Source of the DNA: Rhododendron vialii
Lineage: Eukaryota; Streptophyta; Magnoliopsida; Ericales; Ericaceae
Direction of reading: 5' to 3'
Length of the DNA: 64,000 nt
NCBI RefSeq assembly: GCF_030253575.1
Contig: NC_080559.1
Location: forward strand, 12,021,501-12,085,500
The position numbers and the translations under genes were made by a program. This document shows positions 11,356 through 59,734 of this stretch, one piece after another. The notes beneath the pieces are model-generated. The model had not been told where the DNA came from. It saw only the letters and a list, made by a program, of their open reading frames with translations, and made no database searches. Position 1 is the first letter of the stretch, and each line of letters begins with the position of its first letter.

Positions 11356-11956
11356 CAGGGGCGGACCCACCATAGGGCACGTGGGGTCACGTACGGTCAC
11401 GTGCCTCCATGCCCATTAAAAATAAATAATTTTTTTTTGGTTTTGTATATATATTATTTATGTTGAATGTATAGAAGTACTTGTTGATTGGTGCATTGGT
11501 AGAGTTCTCTCCTTTTAAGCAAGAGGTGGTGGGTTCAAGACTTCCCCCATGCTCTCCCGTAGGTATTTTTTGCCTTTTCCCAAAAGACAATGTGTGTGTG
11601 TGTGTTTTTTTTTCCAAAAGACAATAGAAAAAGGTAATGTGTGTGTGTGTTTTTTTTCTCCCAAAAGGCTGAAAATAGTAGTGCATACCTTGTGTTTTAT
11701 ATTATTCGTGGGTTCGAGTCTACCCCCACATTGCATTTGTATACTTTTTGCCCAAAACTGTAATAGTAGAGTTAGTAATAGAAAAATAGATGATGAACAT
11801 GTGATAATGTTGTTTAATACATATATACTTTAAAATTGTTAATTTATCATGAATGCTAAAATTATTTTGGAGTAAATGTGCTTAACTGTAACTCGTATAT
11901 TACGGTTACAAAAAAATTGGTGCCCCCGCTATGTCAAATTCCTGGGTCCGCCACGG
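11356..11956. mobile_element. hAT-type nonautonomous element with perfect 8-bp target duplication
   Basis: A 601-bp element beginning CAGGGGCGGACCC and ending in the inverse GGGTCCGCCACGG. It is flanked by the perfect direct repeat GCAAGATC (11348-11355 and 11957-11964). The 8-bp duplication and these ends are hAT hallmarks. It carries a tRNA-like SINE head inside and two (TG)n runs. Confidence 0.85.
11484..11760 (+). mobile_element. tRNA-derived SINE nested in the hAT element
   Basis: TGGTGCATTGGTAGAG (A box, from about 11489) and GGGTTCAAGAC (B box, from 11531) have tRNA spacing. A second GGGTTCGAGTCTACCCCC lies at about 11709, so a dimeric or partly duplicated SINE is possible. Confidence 0.45.
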
Positions 11957-27602: not shown

Positions 27603-28066
27603 AAGAAAGAGACCAACACCCTAGGGTTTCTTTATGGAGTGGCGATTCAATTCACAACGATCGATCGAGGTTGAATGCTTGGTCGCGACAGTGAAGACGT
27701 TGAAGGATCTTCTGCGTGTTCGTCAAAGTAGCCTTTATTTAGCGTATGCAGAGAAGGTATCATTTCAAACCCTTGAACCATAACTGGGTCAAACCAAATT
27801 ATTTCAACTATGACTATTTTTCTGTCGATTTGCTTGATTTTGAACTGTATGTATATTTATATAGCCTTCGAAATGGTAGTTGGGATGTGGTCCCCCCATG
27901 TTTGCTCTATTTTTTAAAATGTGTGCGTAAGAATCGATTTTTTTACTAGTTGTGCACTTTTCCCTTTTATTTAAAGCTAGTGGGTGTTGGTTGTGTGGGT
28001 CGGTGGGGTTTTGGTCAATGAATTAAATAGTGCATTTTTTGTTGCTTTGCTATGCTTTTGACAGAA

Positions 28067-31000
28067 ATGGGGTACCAGTACTTCAACTTTAAAGTACACC
28101 ATAGGGGACAATTTGTTTGGAATCCACAAGTGGCCTATGTGGGTGGTAAGGTAGATTATGTAGGTGAATTTGACCCTACTAGGTTGTCATTATTTGAAAT
28201 TAGGGATGTGTACTACAAGATGTTAGGTGGTACAGGTGCAACTGACCATTACAGGTGGCCTGGGTATACACTTGATATGGGTTTAGCAATGATAAATGGT
28301 GATGGTGATGTGCTAAAGATGTTAGAGATGTACAAGGGTTTGACTATCATTGTAATATATGTGGATAAGTTAATGGACCCCCTCCTAGTTATGTCATCCA
28401 ATGGTGAGATTTTATCCAGTTCTCCAGTAATGCCAAGTCAACTTGTCATTGACCTGTCTGATAATGATGAGGGCACAGGGGTTAAGGACTTTGGGGCTGA
28501 AACTGTAACTGAAACGGAGGTTGAGGACATTGGGGATGAAAATGTAACTGGGGTTGAGGAAGAGGCTAGAATGGAGTGTGATCTTAGTGATGCAGATTCT
28601 GAGGACTTAGATTATGTTGCTAGTGAGGAAGATAATGATGAAGTTAGTGATGATGCTATTTGGATGTATGAGGATTTAGAAGGTCCAGATGATGACATTT
28701 TTAAAGTTAATTCCCATAGGAGGGTAGCTGAACAACCTCAACCACAACCAACCAATGCAGATGTTAATACTGATGAGAAATGGTACTCTAACCTAGAGGA
28801 TGAAGAAAATCTTAGTCTAAAGGGATCATCAGATGAAGATGGGGATGGACACCCAGAATTCAAAGAGAAGATCCACATGGCCAATCCTATATTGGTAGAA
28901 GGAATGAAGTTTACTGGAGTAAGACAATTTAGGGAGTTTCTTAAAGAGTGGAATGTGGTCAATGGGTATGACATAGAGTACAAGAAAAATGAAGCTACTA
29001 GGATAATAGCTGTTTGTAGGTATGGCTGCACTTGGAGGATTCATGCTTCTCCTATAATGAGGACCACAACTTTCCAAATAAAGTCAATAACAGGGGAACA
29101 TGAGTGTGGAAGGCAGTATGATAATAAGTAGGCCAATTCCAGCTACATAGGGAAGAAGTTGTTGGATGAAATCAAGGACAACCCTACCATTAACATAACT
29201 AGTTTGAAGAACAAGATAAGGAGGAAGATTATGGTGGATGCTAGTAGGTATCAAGTTTACAGGGCAAAGAGGAAGGCAACAGAACTGATTGCTGGTGATA
29301 TCAAAGAACAATAGCTAAGAATTTGGGATTATGCTGAGACAGTTAGAAAACACAACCCAGGGAGCCATATCATTATCAAAACTGATCCAGATACAGTTGA
29401 ACCTACCTTACAGAGGATTCTTGGCAGGGTATAGACCTATCATAAGACTTGATGGATGTCACTTGAAAGGTATCTATGGAGGGCAGTTGTTGACTGCTGT
29501 TGGGTGAGATGTGAATGATAACATGTTCCCAATTGCTGTGGCATTGGTGGAGCTTGAATCTAAGGATTCTTGGACGTGGTTTCTACAGGTTTTGCAAGAG
29601 GACATTGGGAGTTATGAAGAGATGAGTTGGACATTTATTTCAGAAAGACAGAAGGGATTGATTGAGACATTTAATGAGCTGTTGCCAGGGTGTGATCACA
29701 TGTATTGTCTTAGGCATATGTATAGCAACTTTAAGGTGAAATTTCCTGGTGCTTTTTTGAAGGATTTATTCTGGAAAGCAGCCTCCACATGCAGTGTAAG
29801 TGGGTTCAATTATTGGATGAAAAAAATTGAAGAAGCTGACCCTAAGTTGAATGAAATGAGGCATACAACTGTAGAGTGGTTAAGGGCTGTTACCCCTTCA
29901 CTGTGGGCAAGGTCTCACTTCAGTACAAAAAGCAAATGTGATGTGGTAGTTAACAACATATTTGAGTCTTTCAATTCTTACATCTTGGAGGCCAGGGAAC
30001 TGCCAATTATCTCAATGTTTAAATGGATTAGGAAGGGAGTGATGCAAAGAATTCAGGTTAAAAAGGCTGGAATGCAGAAATATACTGGTCATTTATGTCC
30101 TAATATACAAGAAAAGATAGATAAGTTAAAGGTAGAGAGCAGGATCTGTGTTGCAGCTTGGTGTGGTGAGTTAGAGTTTGAGGTTGATTACTATGATAGG
30201 ACTTATACATTGGATTTGAGAACCAAAATTTGCAGTTGCTGTAGATGGCAACTAACAGGTATACCATGCTACCATGCTATTGCAGCCATTCAGAAGAACA
30301 AAGAACATGTGGAGACTTATGTCCATCCTTATTTCATCAAGTCAGGGTACCTCGCTGCATATTCCTACATGATCCACCCAGTTCCAGATATGCTTGACTT
30401 TGTAGAAATAGGTTTCCAACCTCTAAACCCACCAAATTCTAAGAGGGAAAGTGGTAGACCTAAGAAACTGAGAAGGAGGACTACAGATGAATCTAGAGAT
30501 CCAAACAAAGTTACAATAAGAGGGTTGAATGTTACATGTGCCAAATGTATGCAAGTTGGGCACAACAAAAGATCATGCAAGAACATGATCCATCCTAAGT
30601 TCAAGTTAGTCAAGGTAAATTTATGTCACTTAGTCATCTCCATATATTGCACTCATGTTTTCATTTTATTTAATGACATGTGTATTTGTTTATGCCAGAA
30701 TGGTCAGACATCCAATGCAACATCTCAACCAATGGGAACACATACTGATGTACCTCCCACAATAGTAATATTCAGAATCATTTCATGTACTAGACAATTT
30801 CATATTGTATTTGACTTGCTACTCTTGCATGACTTTTTAGGGCACAAGAACTAGAGCTGGAAGGGGAGCAAATGGAAGGGGAATGACAACTTCAATTGCA
30901 AGGGGAGCAACTGGAAGGGGTGTCACAACTGTTGGAACTGGAAGGGGAAGGGCAAGGGGGGCTGGATCTTCACAACCTCCAATTGGTTCATCATCACAAC

Positions 31001-31239
31001 CAGTTGGAAGAAGTACCGGAAGAGGTGTGACTGGAAGGGGAAGGGGGGTTGGATCTACACAACCTCCAACTAGTTCATCATCACAACCAATTGGAAGAGG
31101 TACTGGAAGAGCTGTGACTAGAATAGGTGCTGGAAGAGGTGGTAAAGCTTCATCATCAGGACCAGTTGGAGGACCTTCTTTGGCAATAGTGCTTCAGAAC
31201 ATAAGAGCAAAAAAGCAAGCTAGAGTCACTGGGATGTAG
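28067..31239 (+). pseudogene. MULE transposase (mudrA-like), broken
   Basis: A probable 5' leader intron ends TTTTGACAG, just before the start MGYQYFNFKVHHRGQFVWNP. The order is: N-terminal PB1-like domain (28067-28390), acidic linker, MuDR DNA-binding-type domain (about 28860-29130, KFTGVRQFREFLKEWNVVNG), MULE catalytic domain (GYRPIIRLDGCHLKGIYGGQ at about 29430-29490, then MFPIAVALVELESKDSWTWF), SWIM/PMZ finger (CSC...CYH, about 30230-30280), zinc knuckle CAKCMQVGHNKRSC (about 30537-30580), and a Gly/Arg-rich tail from a last exon after CTTTTTAG (30841-31239). Breaks: TAG at 29129, TAG at 29312, a frame shift near 29428, and TGA at about 29505. The second catalytic Asp of the usual FISDRQKG is Glu here (FISERQKG). 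It is not expected to give a working enzyme. Confidence 0.9.
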
Positions 31240-54917: not shown

Positions 54918-55381
54918 AATAGCTCACTTACTATCAAATTGGAGTGGTAAGTGAAGTGCGATTGTTGCTTTCTTTGTACTTCCACGCATTTGGACTGGGT
55001 TGGAGCTCTCCTCCCTTCTTCCTCTCTAGCATCTAATAATACTAACCTGCTGATGATTTGAAAAAAAAAGACTACCATCAGACCCAGTGATCTTCGCATA
55101 ATGAAGTCTTCAACTGTGGTTTTTCAAAATCAATCCTTGAACTACTATTTAATTTGCACTAATCTGGGAAGTGTGTACTTTTTTGAGATGGGGGTTAATT
55201 AAGTACAATTGCTTAAAGGGCCAATCTGGGAATTCTTTTAGCGCCAAGTGACAACTCTTTCCTTTGAATACTGGACAAAGAATTAATTTCTTATGCACCC
55301 ACAAATCTTCCCAAATCTGAGGACCAAATTAACAAGTGAGAATTTTTCATAAGTTCACTATAGCACTTTCTAAATCCATCT

Positions 55382-56149
55382 TGTAACACCCTGTCCCACA
55401 TCGGAAGTCTACGTGGATGATCTTGGGCATATAACAAACCTTGTAGGCTACTACTAGTACCTTGTGCTTAAGCTTTTGGGTCATGTGGTGTGGCTTGTGG
55501 ATCAAAATCAGGGTACTGGGCCAGTGGTCTGCTTGGGGCGTTACAGGTGGTATCAAAGCCATCCATGTACACGATCGTGTGAGCCCTTGGAGTTTGGTTT
55601 GATTTGGTTGTTGGTTTGATTTATAATGGTGATTATAGTGCTCAACCCCTCGCGAGGGCGCGAGGCTATAAAGTTGGGGAGATTGTAACACCCTGTCCCA
55701 CATCGAAAGTCTACATGGATGATCTTGGGCATATAACAAACCTTGTGGGCTACTACTAGTACCTTGTGCTTAAGCTTTTGGGCCATGTGGTGTGGCTTAT
55801 GGATCAAAATCAGGGTACTAGGCCAGTGGTCTGCTTGGGGCGTTATAGGTGGTATCAAAGCCATCCATGTACACGACCGTGTGAGCCCTTGGAGTTTGGT
55901 TTGATTTGGTTGTTGGTTTGATTTATAATGGTGATTATAGTGCTCAACCCCTCGCGAGGGCACGAGGCTATAAAGTTGGGGAGATTGTAACACCCTGTCC
56001 CACATCGAAAGTCTACATGGATGATCTTGGGCATATAACAAACCTTGTGGGCTACTACTAGTACCTTGTGCTTAAGCTTTTGGGCCATGTGGTGTGGCTT
56101 GTGGATCAAAATTAGGGTATTGGGCCAGTGGTCTGCTTGGGGGGTTACA
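55382..56149 (+). mobile_element. TRIM retrotransposon with three LTRs
   Basis: Three 164-bp LTRs (55382-55545, 55684-55847, 55986-56149) start TGTAACACCCTGTCCCACAT. The first ends GGGGCGTTACA; the others end in close variants. Two 138-bp internal domains open with GGTGGTATCAAAGCC, a primer-binding site matching initiator tRNA-Met, and close with the purine tract AAAGTTGGGGAGA. A perfect 5-bp duplication, CATCT, flanks the whole (55377-55381, 56150-56154). It has no coding capacity, as is normal for TRIMs. The LTR-int-LTR-int-LTR form suggests unequal recombination between LTRs. Long antisense frames here are artefacts. Confidence 0.93.
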
Positions 56150-56339
56150 CATCTAGTCCACTTCTAAGTTTCATAATCCACTAAGTCCACTAATAATTTT
56201 AATGATAAAAATACCTCACCTAAGAAACAAGGGCCTTGTTTGGCTAACACGAAAATATATTTTTTCCATTTTTTTCGTTTTTGTTGCAATCAAGCAGCCG
56301 CCACCACTGTCGCCGCTGCCACCACCGCGGCCACCGCCA

Positions 56340-58330
56340 CCTTCGCCACTGCCATCACGCCACATATAACGTTATATGTGTAATAAAAATCCTATTTTTT
56401 TATTTTTCTCGATTTTTTTATTGAACCTGCTACACTTAACATTTAACGTTATATATGTGACAAATTTCTCTTTTTGTTTTTTCCTATTTTTCTTGTATTG
56501 ATTTTTTAACGTTATATGAGTGATAAAAATTTCCTAACATATAACATTATATGTGTGGCAAAAAATTTCTGACATGCAACATTTTTTTTTTGGTTTTTCT
56601 TATTTTTAGTCTTTAACGTTATATGCTGGTCCATACAAAACATATAACATTATATGTGAGTTTTTAAATATCTAAATATCGGAAAAAAAAATAGAACATA
56701 TAACATTATATTTGAGTTTCTGCAACTTTGAATCTCACAAAAAAAATATAACAAAAATATAACATTATATGTGAGCTTCTGTAGTTCTAAATCTCACAAA
56801 AAAATAGAATATATAACATTATATTTGAGCTTCTGTAGCTCTAAGTCTCACAAAACATGGCATATAAAATTATATGTTCTCAAAGCAATATCATATCTTT
56901 CCAACAATATTACATATCTCAAAAAATAACATTATATGTTTACATATCATGCCACCATTATTCTTGTTTTCAATCTTGCTTTGAATCCCAAGTTGAATGT
57001 TGATGAGGCCACAGGGGGTCGAGCTTCATTTTTTCACCGTTTCTTCATCAAAACCTTCATCGAATCCTTCAAAATTTATGATTTTCTGTCTCCGAATAGC
57101 ATTCTCATAACTTCTATATCTACATATATACATATTCAAAATAACATAAACAACATTAATATATCTCAAAAAATGAGATATAATATTATATGTCTAACCC
57201 TACGAAAATCACATATTACACATGACAGAAGTTCACATATAACGTTATATGCTTCGTTGTCCATCACTTATTGAATTGGTCCGCGCAGCGGCCTCTTCGA
57301 CTTGCTTCTGATAATATATGGATATATCTATATGTGCTTTTGAGAGGCCGCTGGGCTGACCTATTCAATAAAAGAATATATAACGTTATTAGTTTCTCTT
57401 TTTTTTTTTGAGTTTTACAGGACAAAATCTCATCTACAACGTTATATGTTCTCTATGCGAATTGAAATATTTTTTTTATGTCAATACAAGCTCATATATA
57501 TAACGTTATATATATATATATATATGTACATATGGTCACAAATATTTTCATATAACCATATATAATCATATATGGATATATCCATATGTATTTTTGAGAG
57601 GCCACTGCGCGGACCAATTCAATAAAAGAATATATAATGTTATTAGTTCTTTTGTTTTGAAGTTTTACAGGACAAAATTAGGTACCAAAGGCAAATTGTC
57701 ACATATAACATTTATGTCTCAGTAAAGAATGTCATCTATAACCAAACCACATCGCTAACCGAGCTTCAAATCACATATTTTCACCTATAAGTCGGAGAGG
57801 CCGCTACATGGACCAATTCAATGAGTGATCGACAACGGAGTATATACCGTTATATATGACAGAAGCTCATATATAACGTTACGCGGTACAAAATGTCATA
57901 TATAACTTTATATGTTCTCTTTATTAAATAGCATAGAATATTTCTAATCTAAAATGTTATATATAACAATATAACGTTATATATTATTATATCTCTCTCT
58001 ACCTAAGAATGTTTTAAAAAAATGACATTAAATAACAACAAAAACACACAAAAATATATTTTGTGTGCCACGAAAAACACACATAACCTTATATATTTTT
58101 TCAAAAAACACAACCTGTTACAACCTTATATGTCTAGCCCTAGAAAAAACACACATATAACCTTATATATTTATTCAAAAAACTTAAAATATATGAGAAG
58201 CAAGTCGGAGAGACCGCTGCGCGGACCAAATCAATAAGTGATTGATGAAAAGCACAAATATAACCTTATATATTTATTAAAAAAACTTTAGATTTCTAAC
58301 CCTAGGAAAAGCACACATATAACCTTATGT
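56340..58330. repeat. Field of short palindromes centred on TATAACGTTATA
   Basis: Dozens of close variants of ACATATAACGTTATATGT (often AACATTATA or AACCTTATA) are scattered in both orientations. A second motif, GAGAGGCCGCTGCGCGGACC plus AATTCAATAA, recurs at 57340, 57597, 57797 and 58206, and inverted at about 57273. No open frame spans the field. Subterminal motif arrays are known from DNA transposons, but this one fills the middle of the element. Confidence 0.8.
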
Positions 58331-58737
58331 ATTTATTCAAAAACCACAAAATCTGATGATAACCAGACACGGGACAAACAAAAGACCGGATCAACCTTCT
58401 TATAATACTATATTTTTTATTTTTACAACTCCAGATTTCTCTCCAATAAAACAAATAAAAGACCAGATTAACCTTCTTAATATGATAGACAAACCAACCA
58501 TTGAAGCAGACCTGAATTAATTTGACTCAAATCGAAATTGTGCTCCATATGAAGTTAACTAGTTAAGCTTTTTACAAAATTTGAGGGGATTGGATTCGCC
58601 TAACATAATCATCCAATTCTTAACTTACCTACAATCTCAATTACCAAACACGAAAATACAAAAAAGAAAAAAATCTAATCTTAACACAAGATAAAAATAA
58701 AAATAAAAACTACAACAAACAAATGAAAATAATCTAA

Positions 58738-58935
58738 CCCCAAGGGGTTGGCCGAGTGGCTTGGCTTGGGATTCAGGGTTTGCCCCATCCTAGTGTCTCA
58801 AGTTCAATTCCTCTTGCAAATAATTGTTAGGGTCACATCATCCCACGCGTAAGCATGTGAAACGATGGTGGGAAGACTGTAGAGATTAGTCCGAGGTTCG
58901 CAAACTGGTGTAGGCATTACCAATAAAAAATAATA
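58738..58935 (+). mobile_element. Au-like tRNA-derived SINE
   Basis: A tRNA-like head (GGGGTTGGCCGAGTGGCTTG, B box AGTTCAATTCC) is followed by GCGTAAGCATGTGAAACGAT, GAAGACTGTAGAGATTAGTC and GAGGTTCGCAAACTGG, the body also seen at 48455. It sits in the intron just after the DnaJ first exon. Confidence 0.75.
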
Positions 58936-58973
58936 ATCCTCCAATAAGGAACAACAAAAGAAAGAGAAAATAC

Positions 58974-59186
58974 CCTAAGAGCAAGCAATCTGAAAGCCTT
59001 CTTGACCTCAGATTTCGAAGCCCCTGGCTTAACCATGAGGGTCTTGTACGGGTTTCTCGTCGTGGTAGAAGAAGAAACGCAAGAAACCCGGCAAACCATG
59101 TCACTACCCCTCACCGCTTTGTTCTTCGATCGAATCCAAGAGGACCCATAAGCACCGCCGCTAACAAACCCAACCGCAGTCGCCAT
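58974..59186 (-). CDS. First exon of a plastid-type DnaJ (J8-like) protein, isolated
   Basis: A 213-nt open exon (71 aa) from ATG at 59186 to the donor AGG|GTATTT. Residues 1-43 (MATAVGFVSGGAYGSSWIRS, then Ser/Thr-rich, few acids) look like a chloroplast transit peptide. Residues 44-71 (NPYKTLMVKPGASKSEVKKA, then FRLLALR) are helix I and the start of helix II of a J domain. The HPD motif that activates Hsp70 would be in the next exon. I found no continuation (no tyr-his-pro-asp codons) on the minus strand below it. It lies between the arms of a Mutator-like structure, so it is probably a captured 5' piece rather than a whole gene; a very long intron is the alternative. Confidence 0.65.
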
Positions 59187-59734
59187 TCTTTAGGATCAAG
59201 AGATGTCTTTTACGTGTTGTGTATATGAATATATGAACCAAAGGGATTGAAAGAGAGAAACGAGAACCCAATTTGGGAATGGCGTGGATAATGGATAAGG
59301 AATTGAGTGTTACAAAAGAAGGCTCGCCCTTATTCTTTTCCCAGGCAGACAGTTCACCATTCACCAAGGGAGGGGAGGAGAGAGAGAGGGGGAGAGGGGA
59401 GGCTCACATCTGTTTTGTGATCTAGGGTTTCTCTCTCTATATGTTATATAGGAGGGTTTTTTGGTCTTGAAAAATATCTCTTTTTAAGTAAATTGGAGTT
59501 ATTAGGTTATATAACTATATTAGTGGACTAGATGGGTTATGAAATTTAGAAGTGGACTTAGTAAGTTACAAACGTGCTATAGTGGACCTCGCACCAATTT
59601 TTTAAATTAACAAACTAAAGAATTTTGTTTTTAATGGAGTGTGGCCGGCCTAATCTCCAGAAACTACAATAATTAAGGTCAATTCGGCAAATGTTGATTA
59701 TCTGCATGCTTGTTTTTTGGGTTTATAAAGTTTA

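Follow-up and report, generated by a model that had tools for sequence, protein, structure and literature searches.

A probable Pack-MULE of Rhododendron vialii carrying the first exon of a DnaJ gene in a pocket beside its right end

A stretch of 64 kb from contig 3 of Rhododendron vialii (C3:12021501-12085500, hereafter the window, whose own coordinates are used unless a contig is named) holds an element that carries the first exon of a DnaJ gene, for a chaperone of chloroplast type, between inverted arms (Table 1). A preliminary description, made from the letters of this stretch, had proposed gene-fragment capture by a Mutator-like element (MULE). Having searched the whole genome (532.6 Mb in 13 contigs), we found this proposal borne out by the ends of a repeat family, a 9-bp duplication and a parent gene elsewhere, and a non-autonomous MULE carrying a gene fragment, i.e. 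a Pack-MULE, is the best explanation, with a probability that we estimate at about 0.93. Direct observation covers the ends of the element with their 9-bp duplication, its family, the parent gene and another element carrying this capture. The family described here is new, and a literature search on Pack-MULEs in Rhododendron returned none; its kind is already known. The Pack-MULEs of rice, maize, tomato and Arabidopsis, as described in passages of PMC3310237 and PMC4858842, are alike in their 9-bp duplication, their inverted arms and the lack of any transposase found in them, as well as in having parents elsewhere, more than one copy and chimeras of several parents.

Read from the letters, the identical run at both ends of the element is 10 bp long (AAATTAACAA), and AAATTAACA occurs on the + strand of the window at 55326 and 59604 only, and once reversed, at 11837. 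The family ends place the element at 55336-59604, with AATTAACAA as a perfect 9-bp duplication, so that the perfect direct repeat reported earlier stood while its register moved by one base. Target-site duplications of 9-11 bp, and promoters in the arms, are given for MULEs in part of PMC3310237; here the 9 flanking bases agreed fully in seven of the 18 copies compared, the C3 element among them. When the arms were aligned without an insert that interrupts the left one, they paired over about 80 bp, with gaps (56155-56195 with 59518-59558, 88% over 41 bp), which confirmed them as inverted. They are long arms, as in MULEs, with some 70-80 bp paired at about 80-88%. The outer ~17 bases, which the preliminary description had taken as diverged in this copy, are unpaired across the family, the two ends differing from each other there. 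The arms had no further match inside the window.

That such arms occur as element ends elsewhere was clear from the genome search. A 30-base pattern from the right end was found at 138 places with up to 3 mismatches, while its reversed control gave 0, and 9-bp duplications were present at some of the copies. For the right 164 bases, a first look yielded 581 candidates, and the 40 scored were all 92-100% identical, including the C3 element itself. Eighteen copies with both ends were compared, namely the C3 element, a copy on C4, another on C12, L021, and 14 of the lower-ranked among the 40 scored; L039 and L048, with no left end, and L046, with a partial one, were left out. The copies start with GGGAGAATTTTT or near it, and most finish with CCAATTTTTTA. 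The flanking 9 bases agree at 9/9 in C3, L040, L045, L047, L049, L052 and L021s, and at 8/9 in L042, L043 and the C12 element, as well as in L041 after a one-base shift. Over the 18 copies, mean agreement was 6.83/9 at the chosen register, compared with 3.7 when partners were shuffled. Among the matches listed for the 30-base pattern, many of those with 2 mismatches come from a sister subfamily that is homogeneous and has the end TAAAAAATTGTTGGGAAGTCCACTATAGCA, e.g. C1:8108374 (L063); many ends in those matches are identical, and this subfamily has perhaps been recently active.

The captured segment was 93.4% identical to C12:31669496-31670317 over 837 aligned positions. It contains, on the minus strand from 59186 to 58974, an exon of 71 amino acids ending in half a J domain and followed by GT. 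A Pfam scan of this exon read on the opposite, + strand gave no match. The intact exon with presequence and half J domain noticed earlier was thus recovered with its ATG, a presequence-like start, positions 1-26 of PF00226 (E 1.7e-4, weaker than the curated cut-off) and a splice donor. Three places in the genome match this exon: the C3 element itself, C12 (97%) and C4 (94%). The search for a full parent gene was successful on C12, where exon 1 lies at 31669636-31669848 and an exon with the HPD motif at 31670590-31670670, about 740 bp downstream of it; together, the two exons match the DnaJ family above the cut-off. The element therefore holds a fragment of a gene whose parent, HPD exon included, is elsewhere, and with 26 of 63 profile positions and no HPD this fragment falls short of a functional J-domain protein. 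The captured stretch spans the parent from just below a TATAAAT box into intron 1. A repeat that we assume to be a short interspersed element (SINE) was taken along with the intron, because the parent intron on C12 holds it too. The end of the parent gene (C12:31671600-31671960) seems to read in two frames, which could reflect an intron, an assembly error or a true frameshift.

No transposase was expected in the element from the preliminary description, and among its six open reading frames (ORFs) of at least 90 amino acids Pfam gave no transposase family. Pieces of MuDR-like transposase genes with DBD_Tnp_Mut, MULE and SWIM domains are present at 28031-31239 of the window; as an autonomous partner they were rejected, because they do not lie between such arms. 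The sister subfamily was also considered as an autonomous source, and 1500 bases of L063, inspected by eye only, show no transposase-like frame.

The second carrier, on C4, has the same DnaJ capture without the part corresponding to 58411-58915, and outside the element its flanks share no match of more than 7 bases with those of the C3 copy. Two changes relative to the parent, in codons 23 and 55 of exon 1, are common to both copies. For the pocket that they share (58916-59322 in the window and C4:18145452-18145857), identity to the C12 parent was 96.6% in C3 and 95.8% in C4.

The position of the captured DNA within the element is the second feature of this family. All 18 copies have a stretch of at least 80 bp that is common to at most 3 others and ends 235-401 bp from the right end, a weakly shared pocket, while the rest of the body is common to most of them; a further such stretch elsewhere in the body was seen in 4 of 18 (L044, L047, L051, L055), and the C3 copy additionally has the insert in its left arm. 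Besides the DnaJ exon, nine pockets were searched (L042, L050, L047, L041, L054, L055, the C12 element, L051 and L052); those of L040/L043/L049, L044 and L045/L053 were left out as such. Outside sequence was read for L042, L050 and L041, and the remaining donors are matches rather than checked genes. Several pockets proved to be patchworks of pieces from other loci. That of L042 has 178 bp of a syntaxin gene in antisense (donor C4:10140197-10140374, 95%); at CCTC this gives way to pieces of C6:42.36 Mb, one of them exon-like and the others intron-like. That of L050 has 55 bp of a SecE gene, also antisense (C4:39.01 Mb, 96%), adjoining pieces of C4:3.18 Mb (77-93%). Matches were found at C9:9.37 Mb for L041 (80%), at C8:29.47 Mb for L054 (92%, with about 20 more genome places for part of this pocket), at C4:16.31 Mb for pieces of L055 (78-91%), at three places on C1 for L051 (75-79%), and at other genome places for the C12 element. 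The pocket of L047 matched family places only, and for that of L052 the sole match beyond the family was to 35 bp of the syntaxin gene.

In the C3 element itself, a remnant of the syntaxin gene separates the DnaJ leader from the right end, and its outer join is identical to that of L042 (178 bp) and L052 (35 bp). The syntaxin capture would therefore have come first and been overwritten by DnaJ; 22 bases alone would be weak, and the common outer join carries this argument. At the join between DnaJ and syntaxin the two source loci have GACGAG in common, of which the present copies retain CGAG. In a simple model, the chance that a join made at random has 4 bp or more in common is ~0.016, and that for 6 bp or more is ~0.001. 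Short microhomologies of this sort, seen at some of the joins, would fit template switching.

By analogy with what has been modelled for animal Pack-TIRs, microhomology-guided gap repair from other loci is the best supported mechanism of capture. The element would depend for its movement on a Mutator-type transposase acting in trans from another locus, and gaps inside it, just behind the right end, may be repaired by copying other loci, with switches at short matches. The tail of a syntaxin gene would have been copied in first, and most of its letters would have been replaced later by the DnaJ stretch, which runs from just below the TATA-like box into intron 1. Either the chimera or just its pocket would then have reached at least two places, on contigs 3 and 4, either by transposition or by element-to-element copying, and the insert in the left arm of the C3 copy would have landed afterwards. 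The CT-rich tract at the pocket edge could plausibly be a site of breaks or stalls. Microhomology has been given for 67.6% of animal Pack-TIRs in a passage of PMC8277862. A more specific proposal, for which we consider the odds to be even, is that a break-prone capture site beside the CT-rich tract, behind a promoter-like right end, is repeatedly overwritten by microhomology-guided template switching, partly with family copies as templates, so that each copy would be a layered capture record giving order and source.

In the literature searched, seen partly as excerpts, no MULE family with a pocket both fixed and overwritten came up, although this does not prove that none has been published. 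Unlike the Pack-MULEs of rice, maize, tomato and Arabidopsis, this family has arms whose outer ends differ from each other, and the captured pieces examined lie in a single pocket next to the right end, in part overwriting one another. According to parts of PMC8277862, the Pack-TIR Ssk-FB4 of Drosophila, explained by the FoSTeST model, is similarly a template-switch chimera present on other chromosomes, with an uncaptured relative on the chromosome of the parent; in contrast to that multicopy element, only part of a gene was taken here, and the captures are layered and come from several loci. The uptake of host DNA by Pack-MULEs is called not understood in a passage of PMC3310237 and perplexing in one of PMC8277862. 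If a single pocket of a family is repeatedly overwritten, and its donors can be found and its joins read, then the order of captures, the microhomology at joins and the distance of donors could be counted within one plant genome.

Several observations weigh against the Pack-MULE reading or the history proposed for it. The flanking 9 bases agree at 7/9 or less in seven of the 18 copies (L044, L050, L051, L053, L054, L055 and C4), with only 6/9 in the C4 carrier. An autonomous partner with such arms was found neither in the window, where the MuDR-like genes do not lie between them, nor in the 1500 bases of L063 inspected. The join on the intron side of the DnaJ piece has no exact microhomology in the present letters, with ACCAA in common one base off. 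The C3 and C4 carriers are apart in the concatenated and right-end trees, and the left-end tree pairs them with a support of 0.11. Finally, their bodies are 92.3% alike (168 of 2195 positions differ), compared with 95.8% for the DnaJ pocket (17 of 406). As regards mobility after capture, the C4 carrier has no flanks in common with the C3 element, an imperfect duplication, and no firm pairing with it in the trees.

That the pocket is more alike than the bodies carrying it is a hint of element-to-element copying. Either a single chimera moved, with a body that mutates faster, or separate elements passed the pocket on by copying. Spread among separate family copies by gene conversion in gap repair, instead of by one moving chimera, is a tentative alternative with the odds clearly against it; besides this difference in identity, it is favored by the lack of a firm union of the two carriers in the trees, which are themselves short and weakly supported, and is opposed by right ends that are 93.5% alike (13 of 199 differ) and by the syntaxin remnant common to both. 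The Pack-MULE reading does not depend on the route by which the DnaJ pocket spread.

A different origin was also weighed, in which two neighboring family insertions bracketing the 5' end of the DnaJ gene fused. The Pack-TYPE families of PIF and Mariner have duplications of lengths other than those found here. Such fusion of neighbors is proposed for them in parts of PMC8903248, where they resemble this family in the stepwise addition of pieces of different genes and differ from it in their short arms (15 nt in the examples) as well as in the mode of acquisition. A family member does lie on C12, about 4 kb downstream from the first exon of the parent and in the matching relative orientation; with 138 or 581 copies, only 0.005 to 0.02 members would be expected by chance in 20 kb, and the right-end tree places it with C4, L052 and L053. 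This proximity is suggestive. However, syntaxin letters separate the DnaJ piece from the right end, and over both ends the C12 element has diverged further than any other of the 18 (81-84%). The trees weaken the idea that the capture arose from this neighbor of the parent gene, and we regard fusion as unlikely.

Capture from just below the parent's TATA-like box puts a presequence-like exon behind another promoter-like stretch, and the preliminary description had suggested that a plastid-targeted short peptide or a chimeric transcript could result. The TATA-like box and CT-rich leader of the right end face the exon; as the capture omits the parental core promoter, that of the element could take over, and arm promoters of MULEs in other plants appear in part of PMC3310237. 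On these grounds, transcription of the exon from the right end is possible. However, an expressed new gene, driven by this box and giving either the peptide or a regulatory RNA acting on the parent, seems to us improbable. Relative to the parent, the C3 copy has 3 changed and 2 silent codons and the C4 copy 8 and 2, for a site ratio of 160 to 53, with no sign of purifying selection, although the numbers are small; in addition, two ATGs precede that of the exon downstream of the TATA-like box, one of them opening a 16-codon frame, and there is no HPD. With differences that mostly change amino acids in both copies, no HPD and these upstream ATGs, the suggestion is left without support. Still less credible is an exon trap, in which the family would selectively take first exons in sense behind its own promoter: the DnaJ exon with its splice donor, and the exon-like piece of L042, which ends in GTAAGT in the same sense, would agree with it, but the syntaxin tail (the 3' end of a gene) and the SecE piece are antisense, for which reason this idea was dropped, and the other pockets, judged by eye, are without a clear exon. 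Neutral-looking changes and antisense pieces thus make a working peptide or an exon trap unlikely, and the DnaJ exon is most likely an unconstrained passenger today, as judged from its sequence. A genuine DnaJ gene with its first intron invaded by repeats and exon 2 further off is hardly tenable, even with exon 1 open and bearing an ATG and a splice donor, because the two HPD strings in six frames of the window are both outside a J-domain context, the best genome match to the second half (70%) adjoins exon 1 on C12, the other ten matches are C12 exon 1 and nine J-domain loci at 33-47%, none in the window, and the element around the exon has the ends of the family and a 9-bp duplication.

Table 1. 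Features of the element, in window coordinates.
Feature	Position	Strand	Remarks
Left target-site duplication AATTAACAA	55327..55335	.	Identical decamer 55326-55335
Whole element (probable Pack-MULE)	55336..59604	.	4269 bp, ~3.5 kb without the retrotransposon-like insert; ends from comparison with 17 other family copies
Left arm, outer part	55336..55381	+	Matches left end of the contig-4 copy, 91% over 47 bp
Later TRIM-like insert	55382..56149	+	Three TG...CA repeats of 164 bp, two internal pieces; flanking duplication CATCT (55377-55381, 56150-56154)
Left arm, inner part	56155..56240	+	Inverted pairing with 59518-59558; contig-4 left end 88%
Family body	56196..58498	.	AT-rich, many ATATAACGTTATAT-like palindromes; common to most of the 18 copies
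Segment captured from DnaJ parent	58499..59326	-	Leader, exon 1 and part of intron 1; BLAST bounds 58493-59326
SINE-like repeat in captured intron	58743..58930	-	From alignment to parent; bounds approximate
Captured DnaJ exon 1	58974..59186	-	ATG, presequence-like start, J-domain positions 1-26; ends AGG, then GTATTT
Remnant (22 bp) of putative earlier syntaxin capture	59323..59344	-	21/22 letters; overlaps DnaJ piece by 4 bp
Purine/pyrimidine-rich tract, right edge of capture pocket	59364..59404	-	From sequence; variants across family
TATA-like CTATATAACATATAG facing captured exon	59437..59451	-	Variants in family alignment; putative promoter
Right end of element, including right arm	59440..59604	.	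40 scored matches, 92-100%, itself counted
Right target-site duplication AATTAACAA	59605..59613	.	Identical decamer 59604-59613

Scans of the window for tRNAs and against Rfam gave no match. The count of TATATAAC in the right ends (18/18) was not used as evidence, as the arm itself holds such letters. In the family body (56361-58370) and in L063, ATATAACGTTATAT-like palindromes are dense, and GGCCGCTGCGCGGACCAATTCAATAA-like blocks are repeated in both orientations. The insert in the left arm, which we take to be a terminal-repeat retrotransposon in miniature (TRIM), with GGTATCAAAGCC presumably as its tRNA-Met primer site, has its own 5-bp duplication and a tandem form, with three terminal repeats, about 96% alike, and two internal pieces.

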